From positions 12,864-76,863 of the forward strand of contig NZ_KZ859514.1 in assembly GCF_003382685.1 (NCBI RefSeq): 64,000 bases of DNA. The letters run 5' to 3'. The position numbers and the translations under genes are program-made. Shown piece after piece: positions 22,513 to 32,349 of the stretch. The notes beneath the pieces were generated by a model. The model saw only the letters and a list, made by a program, of their open reading frames with translations, made no database searches and was not told the origin of the DNA. Source of the stretch: Halorussus litoreus. GTDB taxonomy: Archaea; Halobacteriota; Halobacteria; Halobacteriales; Haladaptataceae. Position 1 is the stretch's first letter. The number at the start of each line of letters is the position of its first letter.

Positions 22513-22686
22513 TCAGTTGCAGGGGTCGTCGCCGCACCACTGCGAGCACATACAGGTACACGAGCAGTCTAAGCTCCAGATACCCGTGATTTTCTCGGTG
22601 TGCTCCTCGAAGCGCTCGTCGAAGACGCCCTTGATCTCGGTTTCCGCGTTGTACGCCATGCCGAAGGATGTCTGATTCGTGGACAT
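22513..22686 (-). CDS. lanthipeptide precursor 1
   Basis: The 57-residue peptide has leader MSTNQTSFGMAYNAETEIKG followed by VFDERFEEHTEKITGI, then the Cys-rich end WSLDCSCTCMCSQWCGDDPCN (split here: WSLDCSCTCM, CSQWCGDDPCN). There are 6 Cys in the last 17 residues. The leader is nearly the same as in precursors 2-5, while the C-terminus has diverged. The AT-rich ATTTATTTTTATTTATT at 22711-22727 lies 25-41 bases upstream and can serve as its promoter. It is the most distal precursor from the LanM gene. Confidence 0.8.
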   Translation of the reverse strand: MSTNQTSFGMAYNAETEIKGVFDERFEEHTEKITGIWSLDCSCTCMCSQWCGDDPCN

Positions 22687-22851
22687 CACCGAGAAGTGTA
22701 TCCTGCAACCATTTATTTTTATTTATTAGTTTATATAGAAAAATAAACACTGCTAATCACGCCGGTAGTTCGGGTGTGGGATCTGCGAACCGACGCAACT
22801 GTCTCTGGTCGTGGACAGCCTCGGGTCGAAAAAATCGGGAACGGGTCGGTT

Positions 22852-23028
22852 CTAACAGCCGCAGGAGCAACCGTTACAGTCGCCCGAGCAGAGACAGGAG
22901 TCCGTACAGCTCAGGCTCCAGATGCCGGCGGCCTTCTCGGTGTACTCCTCGAAGCGCTCGTCGAAGACGCCCTTGATCTCGGTTTCTGCGTTGTACGCCA
23001 TGCCGAAGGATGTCTGATTCGTGGACAT
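22852..23028 (-). CDS. lanthipeptide precursor 2
   Basis: The 58-residue peptide has the same leader as precursor 1 (MSTNQTSFGMAYNAETEIKG) and core WSLSCTDSCLCSGDC plus NGCSCGC. It differs from precursor 3 by one residue (AAGI against AAGV) and one silent base, so the two arose by very recent duplication. The core offers Ser/Thr for dehydration and seven Cys. A promoter element with AGTATAGAAAAGTATAAG (minus strand) lies 26-45 bases upstream. Confidence 0.85.
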   Translation of the reverse strand: MSTNQTSFGMAYNAETEIKGVFDERFEEYTEKAAGIWSLSCTDSCLCSGDCNGCSCGC

Positions 23029-23053
23029 CAACGAAAAAATACTGCCATGCAGA

Positions 23054-23073
23054 CTTATACTTTTCTATACTTA
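23054..23073 (-). promoter_or_regulatory. promoter of precursor 2
   Basis: The minus-strand reading AGTATAGAAAAGTATAAG ends about 26 bases before the ATG at 23028. The same arrangement (AGTATAGAAAACTACAAGTA) precedes precursor 3, and a variant (GTGTAGAAAAATACAAAT) precedes precursor 4. Confidence 0.6.
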
Positions 23074-23194
23074 GCTAATAATTATATACTAAATAGTATA
23101 AATAAAGTGCTCCTTCAGACGTTGTGTCTGTCGGTGACGCATCTATCACCGGTGGTCGATATTCTCACGCCAAAAAATCGGGAACGGGTCGGTT

Positions 23195-23371
23195 CTAACA
23201 GCCGCAGGAGCAACCGTTACAGTCGCCCGAGCAGAGACAGGAGTCCGTACAGCTCAGGCTCCAGACGCCGGCGGCCTTCTCGGTGTACTCCTCGAAGCGC
23301 TCGTCGAAGACGCCCTTGATCTCGGTTTCCGCGTTGTACGCCATGCCGAAGGATGTCTGATTCGTGGACAT
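23195..23371 (-). CDS. lanthipeptide precursor 3
   Basis: The 58-residue peptide is a near-copy of precursor 2. The duplication includes about 25 bases downstream of the stop (AATCGGGAACGGGTCGG), whereas the 5' flank differs apart from the promoter motif. The ATG at 23371 is used because it aligns with the other six genes; an upstream in-frame ATG at 23395 would overlap the promoter. Confidence 0.85.
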   Translation of the reverse strand: MSTNQTSFGMAYNAETEIKGVFDERFEEYTEKAAGVWSLSCTDSCLCSGDCNGCSCGC

Positions 23372-23392
23372 CGAGAAAAACATAGTCCTATT

Positions 23393-23415
23393 CATACTTG
23401 TAGTTTTCTATACTT
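23393..23415 (-). promoter_or_regulatory. promoter of precursor 3
   Basis: The minus strand reads AGTATAGAAAACTACAAGTA, with CAAGTATG 22-29 bases before the ATG at 23371. It is shared with precursors 2 and 4. Confidence 0.6.
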
Positions 23416-23625
23416 GGATTATATTTATATTTCTATCTCTTAAATAATTACACTGTCAGAGACGGAAATACGCGTGTGGTCTGCTCTTTTCACCAGTCGG
23501 CAGTCGAACGAAGTCCTCGAAAGCCTTTGGCGTGGTCATGCGAGTCGCGGGGGCCGGAGTGGTCCGCGGTCGTTCGGAGAACTGACTTCAGTTCCAGCCC
23601 CGTCCTCGGACGCTACCGAGACCGT

Positions 23626-23802
23626 TCAGTAGCAGTTAGAGGTGTCGCAGTCACCGGTCGAGCAAAGGCAGGAGCCCGTACAGCTAAAGCTCCAGATGTC
23701 GGCCATTTTGCCGGTGTACTTCTCGAAACGCTCGTCGAAGACGCCCTTTATATCATTTTCCGCCTCGTGCGTCATGCCGAAGGATGTCTGATCGGTGGAC
23801 AT
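23626..23802 (-). CDS. lanthipeptide precursor 4
   Basis: The 58-residue peptide has leader MSTDQTSFGMTHEAENDIKG then VFDERFEKYTGKMADI, and core WSFSCTGSCLCSTGD plus CDTSNCY. It keeps the C-T/S-x-S/T-C-L-C-S pattern of the others, but ends CDTSNCY instead of the CSCGC tail. A TATA-like element lies at 23826-23834, 24-32 bases upstream, within a long AT-rich tract. Confidence 0.82.
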   Translation of the reverse strand: MSTDQTSFGMTHEAENDIKGVFDERFEKYTGKMADIWSFSCTGSCLCSTGDCDTSNCY

Positions 23803-23921
23803 CGAGAAGAAATAACTGCGTTAGGATTTGTATTTTTCTACACGAAATTTATATTATATTTTATATATATTAAACTATTATGTGTTATAAACGAGAAAGA
23901 CACGTAGGTACGCCGTTCTTT

Positions 23922-24101
23922 TCAGTAGTTGGCATACGGGTCGCAGTCGACAGTCGTCGAGCAGAGACAGGTGTCCGTACAGCCAAGGGTCCAGGTGCCA
24001 GCGATTTTCTCGGTGTACTCCTCGAAGCGCTCGTCGAAGACGCCCTTGATCTCGGTTTCCGCGTTGTACGCCATGCCGAAGGATGTCTGATCGTGTGTCA
24101 T
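23922..24101 (-). CDS. lanthipeptide precursor 5
   Basis: The 59-residue peptide begins MTHDQTSFGMAYNAETEIKG, followed by VFDERFEEYTEKIAGT, and has core WTLGCTDTCLCSTTVD plus CDPYANY. It has only four Cys but several Thr, the best Thr-to-Cys balance of the set. Only 62 bases separate its start from the end of precursor 6, and its own promoter is weak (GATAAACTA near 24136), so it may be read from the precursor 6 promoter. Confidence 0.82.
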   Translation of the reverse strand: MTHDQTSFGMAYNAETEIKGVFDERFEEYTEKIAGTWTLGCTDTCLCSTTVDCDPYANY

Positions 24102-24163
24102 CGTGAGAAGTGCCTTACCGCTACCTACTGGCTTTCGATAAACTAGCGTCGGGGTTGTTCAGT

Positions 24164-24340
24164 TCAGCAACAGCAGGAACAACCGTTGCAGCCGAACGAG
24201 CAGATACACGAGCAGGAGAAGCCGAAGTCGAACGTGTCCGGCACTGCGTCGCTCTCGAAGAGACGGTCGAGTTGCGTCTTGAGTTCACTGTCGGTGGTGC
24301 TGTGCGTCATGCCGAAGGTGGAAGTCTGAGTTGCTGACAT
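24164..24340 (-). CDS. lanthipeptide precursor 6 (second leader type)
   Basis: The 58-residue peptide has a different leader, MSATQTSTFGMTHSTTDSEL then KTQLDRLFESDAVPD, but keeps the QTS(T)FGM start motif. The core is FGFSCSCICSFGCNGCSCCC, with eight Cys and four Ser. The ATG at 24340 aligns with precursor 7; an ATG ten codons upstream overlaps the promoter. A TATA box CTTATAATTT (plus strand) lies at 24367-24376, 27-36 bases upstream. Confidence 0.82.
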   Translation of the reverse strand: MSATQTSTFGMTHSTTDSELKTQLDRLFESDAVPDTFDFGFSCSCICSFGCNGCSCCC

Positions 24341-24601
24341 CCGAGAATGCTTTTCTCCGATAGTCACTTATAATTTACCTTTATATTTAATTATACAACA
24401 TGAATTGTACTCGTATCCGAATCGGGACGACGAGCGGTCTATCGGTCCACGGTTCGACGCGGCTGCGTGGCGGTGTCGCGCTTCCCCAGTGACGCCGAAA
24501 AAACGGTACTGGTCGGCTGCGAATCGCTCGGAACTGCCGAACTGTGGGTCGCTTGGAACTGTGAATCACTCGAAACCGGCGTTGGTCCCGAGTTCAGTTC
24601 C
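24341..24601. other. gap between precursors 6 and 7
   Basis: The first 60 bases are the AT-rich promoter of precursor 6. The remaining roughly 200 bases are of normal GC content and I see no gene or repeat in them; a decayed precursor is possible but no leader motif remains. Confidence 0.4.
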
Positions 24602-24790
24602 TCAGCAACCGCAGGAACAGCCGTCGCAGGCGATGTTCGTGCAGAGGCACGAACCGGTACACCAACCGCTCCACTCGACGGTGTGGACGTCGCCGAGGTC
24701 CACGTCGAACTTCTCGTCGAACAACTGCTTGAGGCTACTGTCACTGGTACTGTGCTGCATGCCGAACGTCGATGTCTGAGTAACGGACAT
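24602..24790 (-). CDS. lanthipeptide precursor 7 (second leader type)
   Basis: The 62-residue peptide has leader MSVTQTSTFGMQHSTSDSSL then KQLFDEKFDVDLGDVHTV, and core EWSGWCTGSCLCTNIAC plus DGCSCGC. The core keeps W-S-x-x-C-T-x-S-C-L-C-T. It is nearest to the exporter genes; the ABC permease ends 85 bases upstream on the same strand. A TATA-like CCTTATATTTC at 24814-24824 lies 24-34 bases before the ATG. Confidence 0.82.
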   Translation of the reverse strand: MSVTQTSTFGMQHSTSDSSLKQLFDEKFDVDLGDVHTVEWSGWCTGSCLCTNIACDGCSCGC

Positions 24791-24874: not shown

Positions 24875-25735
24875 TCAGTAGTGGCCCATCACCCCACGCC
24901 TGCGTGCGACGCGCGAGCAGACGAGAAACACCGCATATCCGGCGAGCGAGTAGACTGCGGCCACTCCGACGAGTATCCCCAGATCGAACGCCGGGAACTC
25001 CCACAGCCGGACGCCGTTGCGCATCGCGTCCTGGAGCATCGACGAGCCCTGAACCAGCGGGAGGAATCGCAACGGGGACAAGCCCGCCACCGGTGCCGCG
25101 ATGAGGCCGACGATGACGAACTGCATGAGCTGCGAGACGCTCTCGACGCGCTTGTACACGAGCGCGAGCCCGGCGAACACGAAGCCGATGCCGACCACCG
25201 ACACGAGCGCCAGCAAGGTGACGGGGACGATGGTCAGAACGTCGATGGCGAGCGTCCGCTGGGTCGTCAGCAGTATCAGCCCGAGCATCAACGCGCCGAC
25301 GAGGAAGCTCTGGAAGATGTTGACGACGACCTTCGTGACCATCACCGGCCCGAAGCCGTACGGCGACATGTACAGCTGTTCGAGCGTCCCCCATTCGGAC
25401 TCCTGCGTGACGTTGCCCGGCAGGCTGGAGTACGCCGACTGGGCCATGGTGTAGAGGAACCAGCCCACGATGACGCCGTCGAGCGTCTCGGTGATGGCCT
25501 GATTCCCGCCGACGCTGCCGACCGCGGCCTGTCCGCCGAAGAACAGCACCGCGAAAAACAGGTACGAGGCCAGCATCTGCGCGAGGAAGTTCACCCGGTA
25601 GCGGAGCATGATGCGGAACCGTTTGATGAACAGCTCGCGCAACAGCGTGAGTCCGCCAGCGAGCGACAGGTCCGCACTATCCGATCGGCCCGTGCTATCG
25701 TCGGCTGCCGACGCGGTCTTTCTGGTGTTGCTCAT
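24875..25735 (-). CDS. ABC-2 type permease, lanthipeptide cluster exporter 1
   Basis: This 286-residue membrane protein has six helices in the ABC-2 layout, starting near residues 50-70 and ending with GYAVFLVCSRVARRRG. It contains the amphipathic VTQESEWGTLEQLYMSPYG segment typical of these permeases. Its start overlaps the ATPase stop by 4 bases (ATGA), so the two form one transporter. Located between the precursor genes and the divergent promoter, it probably exports the peptides or provides self-protection; neither is shown by sequence. Confidence 0.88.
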   Translation of the reverse strand: MSNTRKTASAADDSTGRSDSADLSLAGGLTLLRELFIKRFRIMLRYRVNFLAQMLASYLFFAVLFFGGQAAVGSVGGNQAITETLDGVIVGWFLYTMAQSAYSSLPGNVTQESEWGTLEQLYMSPYGFGPVMVTKVVVNIFQSFLVGALMLGLILLTTQRTLAIDVLTIVPVTLLALVSVVGIGFVFAGLALVYKRVESVSQLMQFVIVGLIAAPVAGLSPLRFLPLVQGSSMLQDAMRNGVRLWEFPAFDLGILVGVAAVYSLAGYAVFLVCSRVARRRGVMGHY

Positions 25736-26814
25736 GGGTTCGTCGCTCGTGAAACCGTCTCCGTTTTCCGCTCGGTCGCTTTCCGGTCGCGTTCGTTGGC
25801 GTCCTCGTCGTCGGTGATCTTGAGGAACACCTCCTCGAGATCGGGTTCGACGGCGTCGAACGACTCGACCGACAGGTCCGCCGAGCGCAACTCGTCGACC
25901 AGTTCGTAGAACTCGTCGGTCGTGACGCTCACCTCGAAGCGGGTCGCGTTGGGGAGGCGCTCGAAGTTGTCGGCGTCGAACGTCGACTCGAGTCGGTCGC
26001 GGATCGACGCGTCGAGGCGCTCGGTGACACTCACCTCGTACACCTGCGTGTTGAACAGGCTCAGGAGGTTCTCGACCGTGTCGTCGGCCACGATGTGCCC
26101 CTCGTTCATGATGATGACGCGGTCGCAGACGTCCTCGATGACGTCCATGTCGTGGCTCGACAGCAATACTGTCGTGCCCTCGTCCTCGACGAGGTTTCGG
26201 AGTTCCGAGCGCAGGTCGAGCGAGCTCTCGACGTCGAGGCCGAGCGTCGGCTCGTCGAAGAACACCACGTCGGCGTCCCGAGCCATGGTGCAGGCCAGCG
26301 ACACCTTCTGTTTCTGGCCGCGCGAGAGCTCTCGAACGACCGTGTCGGCCTTCCCCTCGAGGCCGAACTGCGTGACGAGTTCGTCGTGACGGTCGCCCAT
26401 CTCGCGGGGGTCGTTGCCGGCCAGCGCCGAGAAGAACTGCATGTTCTCCTTGACGGTGAGCCGCCAGTAGATGTTGCGAGCGCCCTCCAGGGTCGCACCC
26501 ATCCGCCGATAGGCGACACCCGGCTCGTCGTGAACGTCGATGTCGTCGACCCGAACCTGCCCGGAAGTCGGGACGATGAGTGACAGCAACGACTTGATGG
26601 TCGTGGTCTTGCCCGCGCCGTTCGGACCGAGCAGGCCGACCGCGGTCCCCGGCTCGACCTCGAAGTCGACGCCGTCGACCGCTCGAACCGCCTCGTCGCC
26701 GCTTCCGTACTCCTTCGAGAGGTTCTCCACGGCGATCGCCGGCTCGCCGTCTCCTGACCGGTCCCGATTCGGAGAGGACTCGACCCCGTCCGGCGGCTTG
26801 GATGTGGTTCCCAT
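25732..26814 (-). CDS. ABC transporter ATPase, lanthipeptide cluster exporter 1
   Basis: The 360-residue ATPase belongs to the CcmA/BcrA group that pairs with ABC-2 permeases. Motifs: Walker A GPNGAGKTTT, Q-loop region YRRMGATLEGARNIY, signature LSRGQKQKVSLACTM (Ser-Arg-Gly instead of Ser-Gly-Gly), Walker B VVFFDEPTLGLD and switch His in LLSSHDMDV. A C-terminal domain of about 110 residues follows and may touch the substrate. The ATG at 26814 is chosen because a TATA box lies 25-35 bases upstream; ATGs at 26838 and 26829 would overlap or crowd it. Confidence 0.9.
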   Translation of the reverse strand: MGTTSKPPDGVESSPNRDRSGDGEPAIAVENLSKEYGSGDEAVRAVDGVDFEVEPGTAVGLLGPNGAGKTTTIKSLLSLIVPTSGQVRVDDIDVHDEPGVAYRRMGATLEGARNIYWRLTVKENMQFFSALAGNDPREMGDRHDELVTQFGLEGKADTVVRELSRGQKQKVSLACTMARDADVVFFDEPTLGLDVESSLDLRSELRNLVEDEGTTVLLSSHDMDVIEDVCDRVIIMNEGHIVADDTVENLLSLFNTQVYEVSVTERLDASIRDRLESTFDADNFERLPNATRFEVSVTTDEFYELVDELRSADLSVESFDAVEPDLEEVFLKITDDEDANERDRKATERKTETVSRATNP

Positions 26815-26838
26815 TGTATGTGCGCCCATACGACGCAT

Positions 26839-27011: not shown

Positions 27012-28034
27012 ATGGCCGCCATCGAAACGAACGGGTTGACCAAGGTGTTCGGCGACTCCGTCGTCGCCGTCGAGGACCTCGACCTCGAAGTCGAGCAGGG
27101 CGAGGTGTACGGGTTCCTCGGACACAACGGAGCCGGGAAGTCGACGACAATCGACATCCTCCTCGACTTCCTGCACCCGACCGACGGTAGCGCAAGCGTG
27201 CTGGGACACGATACGCGAGAGGAGTCGCTCGCCATCCGCGAGCGGGTCGGCGTCCTGCCGGAAGGGGCGAAGCTGTACGACCGACTCACCGGGCGCGAGC
27301 ACATCGAGTTCGCGATGGAGATCAAAGGCGTCGACGGCGATCCCGACGACATCTTCGAGCGAGTCGGGCTCGACCGCGACGACGCCGACCGGACGGTCGG
27401 CGAGTACTCGAAGGGGATGTGCCAGCGCCTCGGCCTCGGCATGGCGCTGGTCGGTGACCCCGACCTGCTCATCCTCGACGAACCCTCCTCGGGGCTCGAC
27501 CCGACCGGGATGAGCGAGATGCGCGACCTCATCCGCGAGGAGGCCGACGACGGCACCGCGGTGTTCTTCTCGAGTCACCTCCTCACGGAGGTCGAAGCGG
27601 TCTGCGACCGGATCGGTATCCTCAGCGACGGGAAACTCGTCGCGCAGGACAGCATCGAGGTGCTCCGCGAGCGGTTCGGCGGCGAGGCAACGATAGAGGT
27701 GACTGTCGACGCGGTGCCCGACGACGGATTCGATCTGGAGACCGTCGACGGCGTGCTCGGGTCGACGGTCGACCCCGAGGAAGACACCGTCGTCGTCGAG
27801 TGCGAGGACTCGACGGTGCGGGGCGACGTGGTCCAGCGGGTCGGCGAGGCCGCGACCATCATCGACATCGTCTCGGAGGAAGCTTCGCTGGAGTCGATGT
27901 TCGAGGAGTACGTCCGGAACGGAACCGGCGAGGAACTCGCGGGGGGCGATCTCGACTCCGAGAGCGCCGACGGGTCGACCAAGAGCGAAGAATCAGCGAG
28001 TAGCAACGGGTCGGAGACGGAGGTGGCCCGATGA
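27012..28034 (+). CDS. ABC transporter ATPase, lanthipeptide cluster exporter 2
   Basis: The 340-residue ATPase has Walker A GHNGAGKSTT, Q-loop-region GVLPEGAKLYDRL, a signature YSKGMCQRLGLGMAL, Walker B LLILDEPSSGLD and switch His in FFSSHLLTEV. The last 40 residues are acidic and Ser-rich. It belongs to the same family as the exporter 1 ATPase but is clearly a separate lineage. Its stop overlaps the permease start by 4 bases. It heads the plus-strand arm that ends with the LanM gene. Confidence 0.9.
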   Translation: MAAIETNGLTKVFGDSVVAVEDLDLEVEQGEVYGFLGHNGAGKSTTIDILLDFLHPTDGSASVLGHDTREESLAIRERVGVLPEGAKLYDRLTGREHIEFAMEIKGVDGDPDDIFERVGLDRDDADRTVGEYSKGMCQRLGLGMALVGDPDLLILDEPSSGLDPTGMSEMRDLIREEADDGTAVFFSSHLLTEVEAVCDRIGILSDGKLVAQDSIEVLRERFGGEATIEVTVDAVPDDGFDLETVDGVLGSTVDPEEDTVVVECEDSTVRGDVVQRVGEAATIIDIVSEEASLESMFEEYVRNGTGEELAGGDLDSESADGSTKSEESASSNGSETEVAR

Positions 28035-28876
28035 ACTGGCTCACCATCGCGAAGAAGGACTTCCGCGACGCCCGCCGGTCGAAGATCCTGTGGGGCGCGC
28101 TGCTCATCTTCAACGTGTTCATCGTTGCGGTGCTGGGAACCAACTCGACCGACCCCGGCGGCCCGTACTCGGCCGCGCAGGTCGGCATGTCCACGATGGT
28201 CGGGGTCGGGATGTTCTTCCTCCCGCTCATCATGCTGGTCATCGCGTACCTCTCGATCACCGGCGAGCAGGAGTCGGGTAGCATCAAGTACCTTCTCGGC
28301 CTGCCGAACACGCGGCTCGACGTACTCGTCGGCAAGCTCGTCGGCCGAACTGCGGTCGCGATGCTCGGCATCGGCGTCGCGCTCGTCGTCGGCGCGCTCA
28401 TCATGTCCGTTCGGTTCGACGAGGTGCCGGTCGGCCAGTACGCCGGGTTCAGCCTGATGATACTCTACTTCACGGCGGTGTACGTCGCCATCGCGGTCGG
28501 CGTCTCCGCGCTGTGTCGCACCCGCGCTCGGGCGCTGGCCGGAACGCTCGGCGTCTACTTCGTGTTCAGCGTGCTCTGGATCTTCCCTTCGTTCAACCCA
28601 CAGACCGCCGTCTCGTACGTGGTCGAGGATCTGCTCGGCCTCGCGGCGATGCCGCGGCTGTACGACCTCATCCTCCACCTCAGCCCGTCGTACGCCTTCT
28701 CCATCGCGAACTACGAACTCGTGCTCGACATGACCCGCGGCGGTTACATGGGCACGTACGTCGACGGCTTCCCGTTCTACCTGCAGGGATGGTTCATGCT
28801 CGTCATCCTGCTCGCGTGGTTCGTCGCCCCGCTGGCCATCGGGTACGCGCGCTTCCGCAAGGCCGAGTTGAGCTAA
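28031..28876 (+). CDS. ABC-2 type permease, lanthipeptide cluster exporter 2
   Basis: This 281-residue permease has six membrane helices, an N-terminal MNWLTIAKKDFRDARRSKIL elbow and the ITGEQESGSIKYLLGLPNTR motif typical of the NosY/ABC-2 group. It is coupled to the preceding ATPase gene. With exporter 1 the cluster thus has two ABC-2 systems; in bacterial lantibiotic clusters such pairs usually give immunity, and export uses a peptidase-containing LanT, which is absent here. Confidence 0.88.
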   Translation: MNWLTIAKKDFRDARRSKILWGALLIFNVFIVAVLGTNSTDPGGPYSAAQVGMSTMVGVGMFFLPLIMLVIAYLSITGEQESGSIKYLLGLPNTRLDVLVGKLVGRTAVAMLGIGVALVVGALIMSVRFDEVPVGQYAGFSLMILYFTAVYVAIAVGVSALCRTRARALAGTLGVYFVFSVLWIFPSFNPQTAVSYVVEDLLGLAAMPRLYDLILHLSPSYAFSIANYELVLDMTRGGYMGTYVDGFPFYLQGWFMLVILLAWFVAPLAIGYARFRKAELS

Positions 28877-29109: not shown

Positions 29110-32100
29110 ATGACCACCGTATTCAGCGAGGACCACAAGCGCCTCATCGCCGGGCGGGCTCGCACGCTGTTCGAACGATTCGAGGATCCCGAGGCCGTCG
29201 AACACGGCTTCCGCGACGAGGAGGAGGTCACGGAGATCTTCGAGGAGTGGGAGGAGACGTTCTCGACCGAGGAGTCGTTCGAGCGACGGCTGGATCAGCT
29301 CGACGCGACCGAGGCGGAGTGTCGGCAGGCCATCAGCGCCGACAGGCTCGCCGAGTCCGAACCCATCCCTGAGTGGGTCGACCGGCTCGACGATCTCGTC
29401 GCGTCGGTCCACCGGACCACTCCGGAGAAGGCCGCCGAGCGACTCGGCCCTGAGGGCTATCGGGTCGAGGAAGAGCGAACGTTCAAGCAGCTGTCGGCGG
29501 CCATCGCGGCCCACGCGTGCGACCAGCTCGACGAGTCCGTGCTCGACGTGCTCTCGGCGGAGGCCGTCTGGACGATGGCCGACTGGTTCCGCCGCCGGCT
29601 CGAAGACCGGTTCGTGCGCATCCTGTTCGTGGAGTTCAAAGCGTTCATCGCGGCCCACGACGAGGACATGGCGTTCGCCGAGCCCGAGGACTTCGACGAC
29701 GGCGACCTGCCGACCGACTACTACGAGCTGTTCCTCGGCTACCTGTTCGACGGCGGCTTCGGCGACCTCTGCCAGGAGTACCCGATGTTCGCTCGACTCG
29801 TCGTGACCCAGATCCGCCAGTGGCACGAGCATCTTGAAGAGTTCGGTCGCCGCCTCGAAGCCGACCGGGACGCGCTCGCCGACCGGTTCGGCTACGAGAC
29901 GGGCGTCGGCAACGTGACCCACCTCGAACCGCTGGCCGACGACACCCACGGCGACGGCCGCGCGGTGATGCACGTCGAGTTCGAGTCGGGGCTCGACGTG
30001 GCGTACAAGCCCCGGAGCGTCGAAGCCGGCCAGACGTTCTACCGGATGCTCGAACGGTTCAACGACCACCTCGCGGTCCCCGACTTCAAGACGCCGACCT
30101 ACCTGCCGCGGGGCGACTACGGCTGGATGGAGTGGATCGAGTACGAGGAGTGCGAGGATAGCGACGCGGTCGAACGCTACTACCAGCGAGCCGGGGCGCT
30201 CGCGTCGCTGGCGTACTTCCTCGAGTTCACCGACTGCCAGTACGAGAACGTCATCATCAACGGCGAGTACCCGATGCTGGTCGACGCCGAGACCATCTTC
30301 ACGCCCCACGTCAGCGTCGAGCGCAAGCCGACCCGGACCGGCATCGGCTCGCTCCGGGACAAGAGCCTCCTGCTGACGCTGCTGATCCCCTACGACGTCG
30401 AGGACATGCACACCGACCAGAGCGGCGGCCAGTCGAGCACGATCTCCGGGTTCAGTGACTCGGCCGACGAGGACGTGCTCGAGGACATCACCAATCCCGC
30501 GATCCAGGCGGTCAACACCGACGTGATGAAGGTCGACCACCAGCCGGTGCCGGTCGACCCCAGCGAGAACATCCCGATGGTCGACGGCGAGGCCCAACCC
30601 CCGGCCGACTACCTCGAGGAGTTCCTCGACGGCTTCGAGACAGCCTACGAGACCGTGATGGAGCTGCGCGACACGGGACAGCTCACCGACGACGTCGAAC
30701 TGTTCGACAGCTTCCGGTCGGTCGAGAACCGCATCGTCTACCGACCGACGATGCAGTACGGCAGCGTCATCAAGTCGCTGTCCTCGCGGCATTGTCTCGG
30801 CGACGGGGCGAGATTCGGCGTCGAGATCGACGAGTTGAGCGTCCCGTTCTGCAACGGCATCATCACCGAGCCGAAGCCGTGGGCGCTGTACGACGCCGAG
30901 CGGGTGGCGCTCAAACGACTCGACCCACCGCGGTTCACCTGCCGGCCCGACGACACCGAACTCGAACTTAACGGGGAGACGCTCGGCGTCGAAGCCGACG
31001 AGTCGGGGATGGAGCGCGCTCGCCAGCGCATCGAGTCGGCGTCGGAAGACGACCTCCAGATGCAGATCGAGTTCGTCCGGGGCTGTTTCGGCGTCACGCC
31101 CGACGCGAAGCAGGACGGCAACCGGCCGCCGGACGTCGAGCCCGAGCCAGCTACCGACGAGGCGTTCCACGAGGAAGCGGTCGCGCTGTTCGAGGACCTG
31201 CGCGAGTCGGCGCTCGAAGGCGTGAACGGCGGCTACTACTGGGCGTCGGTCGCGCCGTGGACCGAGACAGAGCGGCTCACGCTCCGGCCGGCCGGCGGGT
31301 CGATGTACTCCGGACGGAGTGGCATCGCGCTCCTCGGCGCGGGGCTGTATCACCTCACCGGCGAAGACCGCTACCGATCGTTCGCGCTGGACGCGGTCCA
31401 GGGCATCCGGCAGGCGGTGCGGCTCGAACTGCCGATGCCGTCGCTCACCAACCACGGCGGCGCGACCGGCATCGGCTCGGTCGCGTACGGGCTCAGCCTC
31501 GTCGGCGACCTCGCGGACGAGCCCGAGATCTACGACGACGTGCGCCAGCTACCGAACTTCTTCACGGACGAGGCGCTCGAAGCCGACGACACGTACGACG
31601 CGACCGCGGGCTCGGCCGGAACCGTCCTCGGACTGCTCGGCGCGCACGACCGGGTTGGCGGTGACGAACTGCTGTCGGCCGCGCGGGACTGCGGCGACTA
31701 CCTGCTCGACAACCGCGTCGAGACCGACGACGGCGTCCGCGTCTGGCAGACCCTCGAAGACTGCCCGCCGATGGCCGGCTTCGCCCACGGCGTCAGCGGC
31801 ATCGCGTACGTGCTGCTCCGACTCTGGAACGTGACTGGCGAGACGAAGTACCGCGACGCAGCGCTGGAGGCGCTGGAGTTCGAGGACGCCCAGTACTCAG
31901 AGTCGGCGCAGAACTGGCCGGATCCCCGCGGCTGGTCGGAGACGGAGTTCCTCGACCAGTGGTGTTACGGCCGGAGCGGCATCGGCCTCGCCCGGCTCGG
32001 GATGACCGAGTACACGACCGACGACCGCGTCACGCGCGGACTCGAACGAGCGGTCGACGGGTTCCCGAACGACGGCATCGACCGCTTCGACCACGTCTGC

Positions 32101-32349
32101 TGTGGCGAGGCTGGTCGGTCGGCGTTCCTGCTCGAAGCCGAGCAGCGCCGGGGCGACCGCTCGGGGGAAGCTCGCGAGCGACTCGGCGCGGTCCTCGACC
32201 GCAAGCGCGAGGCCGGCATCTACCAGACGCTCGCGCACACCGACAAGATCGACGACCCGACGTTCTTCCACGGCACCGCCGGCATCGGCTACTCGATGCT
32301 GCGCGTGACTGCGCCCGACGAACTGCCGAGCGTGCTCCTCTGGGAGTGA
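29110..32349 (+). CDS. lanM: class II lanthipeptide synthetase LanM
   Basis: The 1079-residue bifunctional enzyme would dehydrate Ser/Thr of the precursor cores and close thioether rings with Cys. The N-terminal dehydratase (DUF4135, to about residue 680) shows the kinase-like active-site motifs: YKPRSVEAGQTFYRML, DYGWMEWIE, DCQYENVI (D375, N380) and MLVDAETIF. The LanC-type cyclase from about 700 has the zinc ligands C952 (WCYG), C997 and C998 (VCCGEAG), and HGTAGIGY with H1054. The CCG motif, instead of CHG, gives three Cys ligands as in ProcM-type enzymes. Length is normal for LanM. No other biosynthetic enzyme is nearby, so it probably serves all seven precursors. Confidence 0.95.
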   Translation: MTTVFSEDHKRLIAGRARTLFERFEDPEAVEHGFRDEEEVTEIFEEWEETFSTEESFERRLDQLDATEAECRQAISADRLAESEPIPEWVDRLDDLVASVHRTTPEKAAERLGPEGYRVEEERTFKQLSAAIAAHACDQLDESVLDVLSAEAVWTMADWFRRRLEDRFVRILFVEFKAFIAAHDEDMAFAEPEDFDDGDLPTDYYELFLGYLFDGGFGDLCQEYPMFARLVVTQIRQWHEHLEEFGRRLEADRDALADRFGYETGVGNVTHLEPLADDTHGDGRAVMHVEFESGLDVAYKPRSVEAGQTFYRMLERFNDHLAVPDFKTPTYLPRGDYGWMEWIEYEECEDSDAVERYYQRAGALASLAYFLEFTDCQYENVIINGEYPMLVDAETIFTPHVSVERKPTRTGIGSLRDKSLLLTLLIPYDVEDMHTDQSGGQSSTISGFSDSADEDVLEDITNPAIQAVNTDVMKVDHQPVPVDPSENIPMVDGEAQPPADYLEEFLDGFETAYETVMELRDTGQLTDDVELFDSFRSVENRIVYRPTMQYGSVIKSLSSRHCLGDGARFGVEIDELSVPFCNGIITEPKPWALYDAERVALKRLDPPRFTCRPDDTELELNGETLGVEADESGMERARQRIESASEDDLQMQIEFVRGCFGVTPDAKQDGNRPPDVEPEPATDEAFHEEAVALFEDLRESALEGVNGGYYWASVAPWTETERLTLRPAGGSMYSGRSGIALLGAGLYHLTGEDRYRSFALDAVQGIRQAVRLELPMPSLTNHGGATGIGSVAYGLSLVGDLADEPEIYDDVRQLPNFFTDEALEADDTYDATAGSAGTVLGLLGAHDRVGGDELLSAARDCGDYLLDNRVETDDGVRVWQTLEDCPPMAGFAHGVSGIAYVLLRLWNVTGETKYRDAALEALEFEDAQYSESAQNWPDPRGWSETEFLDQWCYGRSGIGLARLGMTEYTTDDRVTRGLERAVDGFPNDGIDRFDHVCCGEAGRSAFLLEAEQRRGDRSGEARERLGAVLDRKREAGIYQTLAHTDKIDDPTFFHGTAGIGYSMLRVTAPDELPSVLLWE

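Follow-up and report, generated by a model that had tools for sequence, protein, structure and literature searches.

A three-cysteine (CCG) LanM and seven related precursor genes in Halorussus litoreus, and the occurrence of the motif in haloarchaea

Results

The lanM locus and its precursor genes

The DNA analysed is a stretch of 64,000 nucleotides from Halorussus litoreus, hereafter called the window. On its plus strand lies lanM (29110..32349), which encodes a class II lanthipeptide synthetase of 1,079 amino acids (TIGR03897, 735 bits). As in other class II LanMs, a DUF4135 dehydratase domain (residues 224 to 611; PF13575, 329 bits) is fused to a LanC cyclase domain (residues 728 to 1077; PF05147, 170 bits). 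Upstream of lanM, and codirectional with it, are the genes for an ABC transporter ATPase (27012..28034, plus strand; PF00005, 97 bits) and, overlapping the latter, for an ABC-2 type permease (28031..28876, plus strand; PF12679, 154 bits). A second pair runs divergently on the minus strand. It consists of an ATPase gene (25732..26838; PF00005, 103 bits), located upstream of the precursor array and on the same strand as the array, and a permease gene (24875..25735), whose PF12698 score of 30.8 bits is just below the family cut-off of 31.6. No Pfam match to a C39 peptidase domain was found in any of the four ABC transporter proteins beside lanM.

Seven precursor genes, recognised as ORFs and by alignment, form one array of 2.3 kb on the minus strand (22513-24790). 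They are precursor 7 (24602..24790; core ...WSGWCTGSCLCTNIACDGCSCGC), precursor 6 (24164..24367; core ...FGFSCSCICSFGCNGCSCCC), precursor 5 (23922..24101; core ...WTLGCTDTCLCSTTVDCDPYANY), precursor 4 (23626..23802; core ...WSFSCTGSCLCSTGDCDTSNCY), precursor 3 (23195..23395), precursor 2 (22852..23031; core ...WSLSCTDSCLCSGDCNGCSCGC, identical to that of precursor 3) and precursor 1 (22513..22689; core ...WSLDCSCTCMCSQWCGDDPCN). Their leaders share the motif QTSFGM ... K...D..F. No double-glycine site was seen by eye in the seven leaders, and two representative precursors, examined for a Nif11-type leader, matched nothing in Pfam or NCBIfam at E 1.

An orphan eighth precursor-like gene, with the core NCSLSATGGCTDSCLCW and a CTDSCLC motif, is found on another contig than lanM (locus L160, contig C13, 1483-1656), between ORFs resembling an AAA proteasome-activating ATPase and an oligopeptidase. 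A search of 17 further genomes of the genus revealed no homologues of the precursor family. The same genome has a second LanM (locus L059, contig C16), also with CCG, accompanied by two near-identical archalan-like precursors; PMC10105419 gives the archalan fragment GLPSASMYSFEHCC, to which their cores (SASMYASEFCCGYSG) are similar. Plausibly, all seven precursors of the array are served by the one LanM of the window, the second LanM having its own two.

Zinc ligands and catalytic residues of LanM

The translation of the cyclase domain contains Cys952 within WCYG (DQWCYGRS; 31963..31965, plus strand), which is invariant in the haloarchaeal alignment, and Cys997-Cys998 followed by Gly (FDHVCCGEAG; 32098..32103, plus strand, the two codons starting at 32098 and 32101). 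Cys952 is the predicted zinc ligand 1, Cys997 and Cys998 the predicted ligands 2 and 3. The earlier note had drawn attention to these three cysteines and had proposed that the third ligand is Cys in place of His, and at the sequence level this is what we find: in a phmmer alignment with LicM2 (6st5), 'SLCHGLIG' pairs with 'HVCCGEAG', so that the ligand His of the LicM2 CHG falls at the position of Cys998, and the enzyme is of the CCG type. The outcome that the note had named as counter-evidence, a His of this enzyme aligning with the third ligand, was therefore not observed. His1054 (FFHGTAG), at the end of the stretch singled out by that note (31963-32271), is not the third ligand. In an alignment of 85 LanM rows, Cys occurs in column 998 in 55 rows, compared to 15 rows with His, and in column 997 in 71 rows; the motif is therefore not due to chance.

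His893 (GFAHG; 31786..31788, plus strand), conserved in 73 of the 85 rows, is the predicted active-site acid, a role described for the equivalent histidine in PMC9934072. Together with the cyclase Cys triad, the conserved dehydratase residues are present in the same alignment (D278, H280, K300, R302, D375, N380, D392, E394, R541, R545 and T547). Residue 377 (30238-30240) is Gln where the TDxHxEN motif usually has His; the same substitution occurs in 17 of the 85 aligned LanMs, 16 of them haloarchaeal.

Relatedness of the precursor cores

The seven precursor ORFs are real, but their description in the earlier note as seven diverse cores is overstated, as they encode six distinct and clearly related cores, one being shared by precursors 2 and 3. 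With core boundaries placed by eye, four core cysteines are invariant across the seven aligned precursors, and the leaders have a mean pairwise identity of 0.60 and the cores one of 0.54, compared to 0.37 for shuffled cores. The observed value is 12 standard deviations above what composition alone would give (z = 12.3), and the six distinct cores taken alone still give z = 9.2. At precursors 2 and 3, the DNA contains 259-nt repeats whose two copies are 93% identical, which shows that the array grew through tandem duplication of whole genes, core included.

As a yardstick, Nif11 precursors were taken from cyanobacteria of the ProcM-like clade (seven genomes). In one ProcA array, the leaders are 0.87 identical and the cores 0.23, compared to 0.24 after shuffling; for all yardstick precursors pooled, among which a few automatically cut rows are spurious, the values are 0.55 and 0.29. 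The ratio of leader to core identity is 1.1 for the window precursors versus 1.9 for ProcA types. Genomes of the ProcM-like clade contain 21 to 53 Nif11 leaders each, and these are dispersed, versus seven clustered precursors and one orphan here. The features of a prochlorosin system, namely hypervariable cores behind conserved leaders, many dispersed precursors and Nif11-type leaders, are thus not those of this locus. The seven precursors are a paralogous family built on one scaffold; the picture of a fixed leader followed by hypervariable cores does not fit them.

Distribution of the CCG motif among haloarchaeal LanMs

A LanM search covered 391 genomes of the class, of which 39 gave a match, in some cases a weak or partial one. 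The readable set comprised 28 fused full-length haloarchaeal LanMs besides that of the window, including the second LanM of the same genome. The three-Cys triad is intact in 24 of these 28; L048 and L050 have none of the three ligands, and L045 and L060 are altered at the second or third position. Four split haloarchaeal LanMs, in which dehydratase and cyclase are separate ORFs, have CHG (L058, L062, L063 and L064; the two ORFs are adjacent, overlapping or nearly touching).

Precursor clustering made use of an acidity filter against Arg-rich spurious ORFs. At least 17 intact-CCG haloarchaeal loci have one recognisable precursor near lanM, a count which missed genes would weaken, since the automatic filter yields lower bounds at loci other than that of the window. 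Plasmid pHG2 of Haloferax gibbonsii, for example, has a CCG LanM with a single adjacent precursor. Given CCG in 24 of 28 enzymes and one precursor at so many loci, the motif does not predict many precursors in the haloarchaeal clade. The seven precursors of the window are the most at any haloarchaeal locus examined and, with the orphan eighth gene, they make some substrate breadth likely.

Two other situations were observed. The LanMs of L048 (7597-10899) and L050 (7800-11042), from two haloarchaeal genomes and belonging to the same subclade as the window LanM, have lost the zinc ligands (WSYG, LADG/LSDG) and kept the dehydratase residues, and a conserved precursor-like ORF ending in TTTTTVTVTTTTSAPFSCSC is present at both loci. 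This suggests that they carry out dehydration without zinc-dependent cyclisation. At L056 (6672-7851), five very short precursors of 38 to 44 amino acids, with related GSC...C cores, lie beside a CCG LanM.

Phylogeny of LanM

The full-length LanM trees were built with the zinc-ligand columns left out. In a tree of 83 LanMs, haloarchaea form one clade (SH-aLRT 100), and the bacterial CHG LanMs are split from all others (100). A more careful tree of 36 rows gave the same haloarchaeal clade (bootstrap/SH-aLRT 100/100), within an assemblage of CCG LanMs that includes the split haloarchaeal ones and is separated from the bacterial CHG LanMs at 100/99. The ProcM-like clade (100/100) stands apart from haloarchaea. 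The term 'ProcM-type', used in the earlier note, is thus apt insofar as the window LanM groups with the CCG LanMs, ProcM-like ones among them, and not insofar as it lies outside the marine ProcM clade. The note had also proposed placing the LanC domain in a tree of CCG and CHG LanMs: with this domain only, the haloarchaeal clade is recovered (97), and the deep split is weak (55).

The possibility that CCG is a sign of specific kinship with ProcM was rejected, because many other LanMs have the motif and the ProcM-like enzymes form a clade of their own. In PMC11251773, the LanC domains are reported to include three distinct subclades with three Cys. No LanM relatives were found in viral contigs. 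Cyanobacterial LanMs were reached by a scan with the LanM of Pseudanabaena, at one locus. Some of them have degenerate dehydratase motifs and an intact CCG, others an intact dehydratase and lost zinc ligands; L095 and L100 contrast with L070, L076, L090, L098, L102 and L103 as to which domain is degenerate. Intact versus lost zinc sites require 11 changes on the tree.

Comparison with known systems

Among known clusters, the one on plasmid pHLAJ5I of Halobiforma lacisalsi AJ5 is the nearest. Its LanM, also CCG, is 56% identical to the window LanM over the full length and is its nearest relative on full-length trees, and the annotated order ABC ATPase, permease, lanM is that of the window. Its precursors share the SFGM-type leader, and most of their cores are of the CTGSCLC type; the similarity in both parts places the window precursors in this halobiforcin-like family. 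The H. lacisalsi precursors number five compared to seven here, and they are placed on both sides of lanM. PMC10105419 names, following Castro et al. 2021, a 'halobiforcin' HlbA family, of which the pHLAJ5I cluster is probably the source.

Archaeal clusters with a CCG LanM, from Halorussus, have already been published (PMC10027976), and such enzymes are therefore not new here. Haloarchaeal CCG LanMs in general, including those of archalans and related peptides (PMC10105419, PMC12144867), are likewise of class II and of the same clade. Most of their loci differ in that the precursors belong to other families and number one or two, and some of the products have been isolated, whereas the window cluster is known from its genes alone. 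In PMC12144867, Haloferax volcanii served successfully as laboratory host. Like the window, the ProcM/prochlorosin systems of marine picocyanobacteria combine a CCG zinc site with several precursors per LanM; they differ by their Nif11 leaders, by precursors that number in the tens and are dispersed, by the lack of detectable core similarity and by forming a separate clade. LicM2 and other bacterial CHG LanMs share domain order and catalytic residues with the window LanM, but have His as third zinc ligand and form a separate clade.

Discussion

We consider it very probable that the window contains a typical haloarchaeal class II lanthipeptide cluster, in which a few paralogous precursors, all rich in Cys, are modified by a single LanM of the CCG type; this explanation, taken as a whole, includes the view that fused LanMs of haloarchaea have CCG by inheritance, as their default, and that the motif by itself is no mark of a combinatorial system. 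In established LanM chemistry, water is removed by phosphorylation and elimination, and Cys is then added at the zinc-bearing LanC domain. On this model, the DUF4135 domain would phosphorylate Ser and Thr residues of the core and then eliminate the phosphate, the shared leader being held meanwhile. The LanC domain would hold Zn2+ via Cys952, Cys997 and Cys998 and activate core Cys, as thiolates, for Michael addition, with His893 protonating the enolate. With four core cysteines invariant, the products would be variants of one multi-ring scaffold, probably exported via the adjacent ABC transporters.

The earlier note had taken CCG and seven cores as signs of a combinatorial system resembling that of ProcM. 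On such a reading, the zinc site would give broad tolerance, and the array would be a library of products still in evolution. The LanM does have the motif and does fall on the side of the ProcM-like enzymes, opposite the bacterial CHG LanMs, and seven precursors with an orphan eighth would suit such a system. However, relatives with a single precursor share CCG, the haloarchaeal default; core conservation is about that of the leaders, unlike in ProcA arrays; duplication took whole genes with their cores; the Nif11 leader is absent from the two representative precursors; and both the number of precursors and the position of LanM outside the marine ProcM clade speak against this reading, which we regard as improbable. 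It also seems improbable that the haloarchaeal LanM is as tolerant of unrelated cores as ProcM, the array and the orphan representing an early diversity-generating stage at which core similarity is not yet lost. Alternatively, the cluster might specify a multi-component antimicrobial, several related peptides acting jointly and near-identical copies serving dosage. Such a role would agree with the conserved core scaffold, the two identical cores and the divergent operons with their two ABC transporters, but the features of the array fit redundant paralogues equally well, and we mention it as a tentative possibility.

A further question raised in the note, descent or convergence, receives a clear answer within haloarchaea, where the trees argue for descent of CCG. 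At greater depth, fused haloarchaeal LanMs could have gained Cys for the third-ligand His separately from bacterial CCG LanMs. The split haloarchaeal CHG LanMs, which may branch at the base of haloarchaea, lie inside the haloarchaeal clade, and their membership of the bacterial CHG clade is rejected (AU p = 0.0003); in the best quick tree, a branch sets the fused enzymes apart, with a support of only 22. Two changes between Cys and His are needed on the full tree, so that two gains cost the same as one gain followed by a reversion, and deep descent and convergence are not distinguished. The separation of haloarchaeal and bacterial CCG LanMs together from bacterial CHG LanMs, obtained without the ligand columns, speaks against separate gains, which we find doubtful. 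AU p values were 0.43 for a grouping of haloarchaea with filamentous cyanobacterial CCG LanMs, and 0.33 for all bacterial CCG LanMs together; the trees favour neither the filamentous nor the marine cyanobacterial CCG LanMs as the closer kin of haloarchaea.

The window cluster carries a useful warning: CCG is often taken as a mark of promiscuous LanMs, but haloarchaeal clusters with a single precursor have it too. Within one archaeal class there are CCG enzymes with a single substrate and others with several, as well as split enzymes with CHG and enzymes without zinc ligands. The haloarchaeal clade therefore offers a natural setting in which to test whether promiscuity results from the three Cys ligands.
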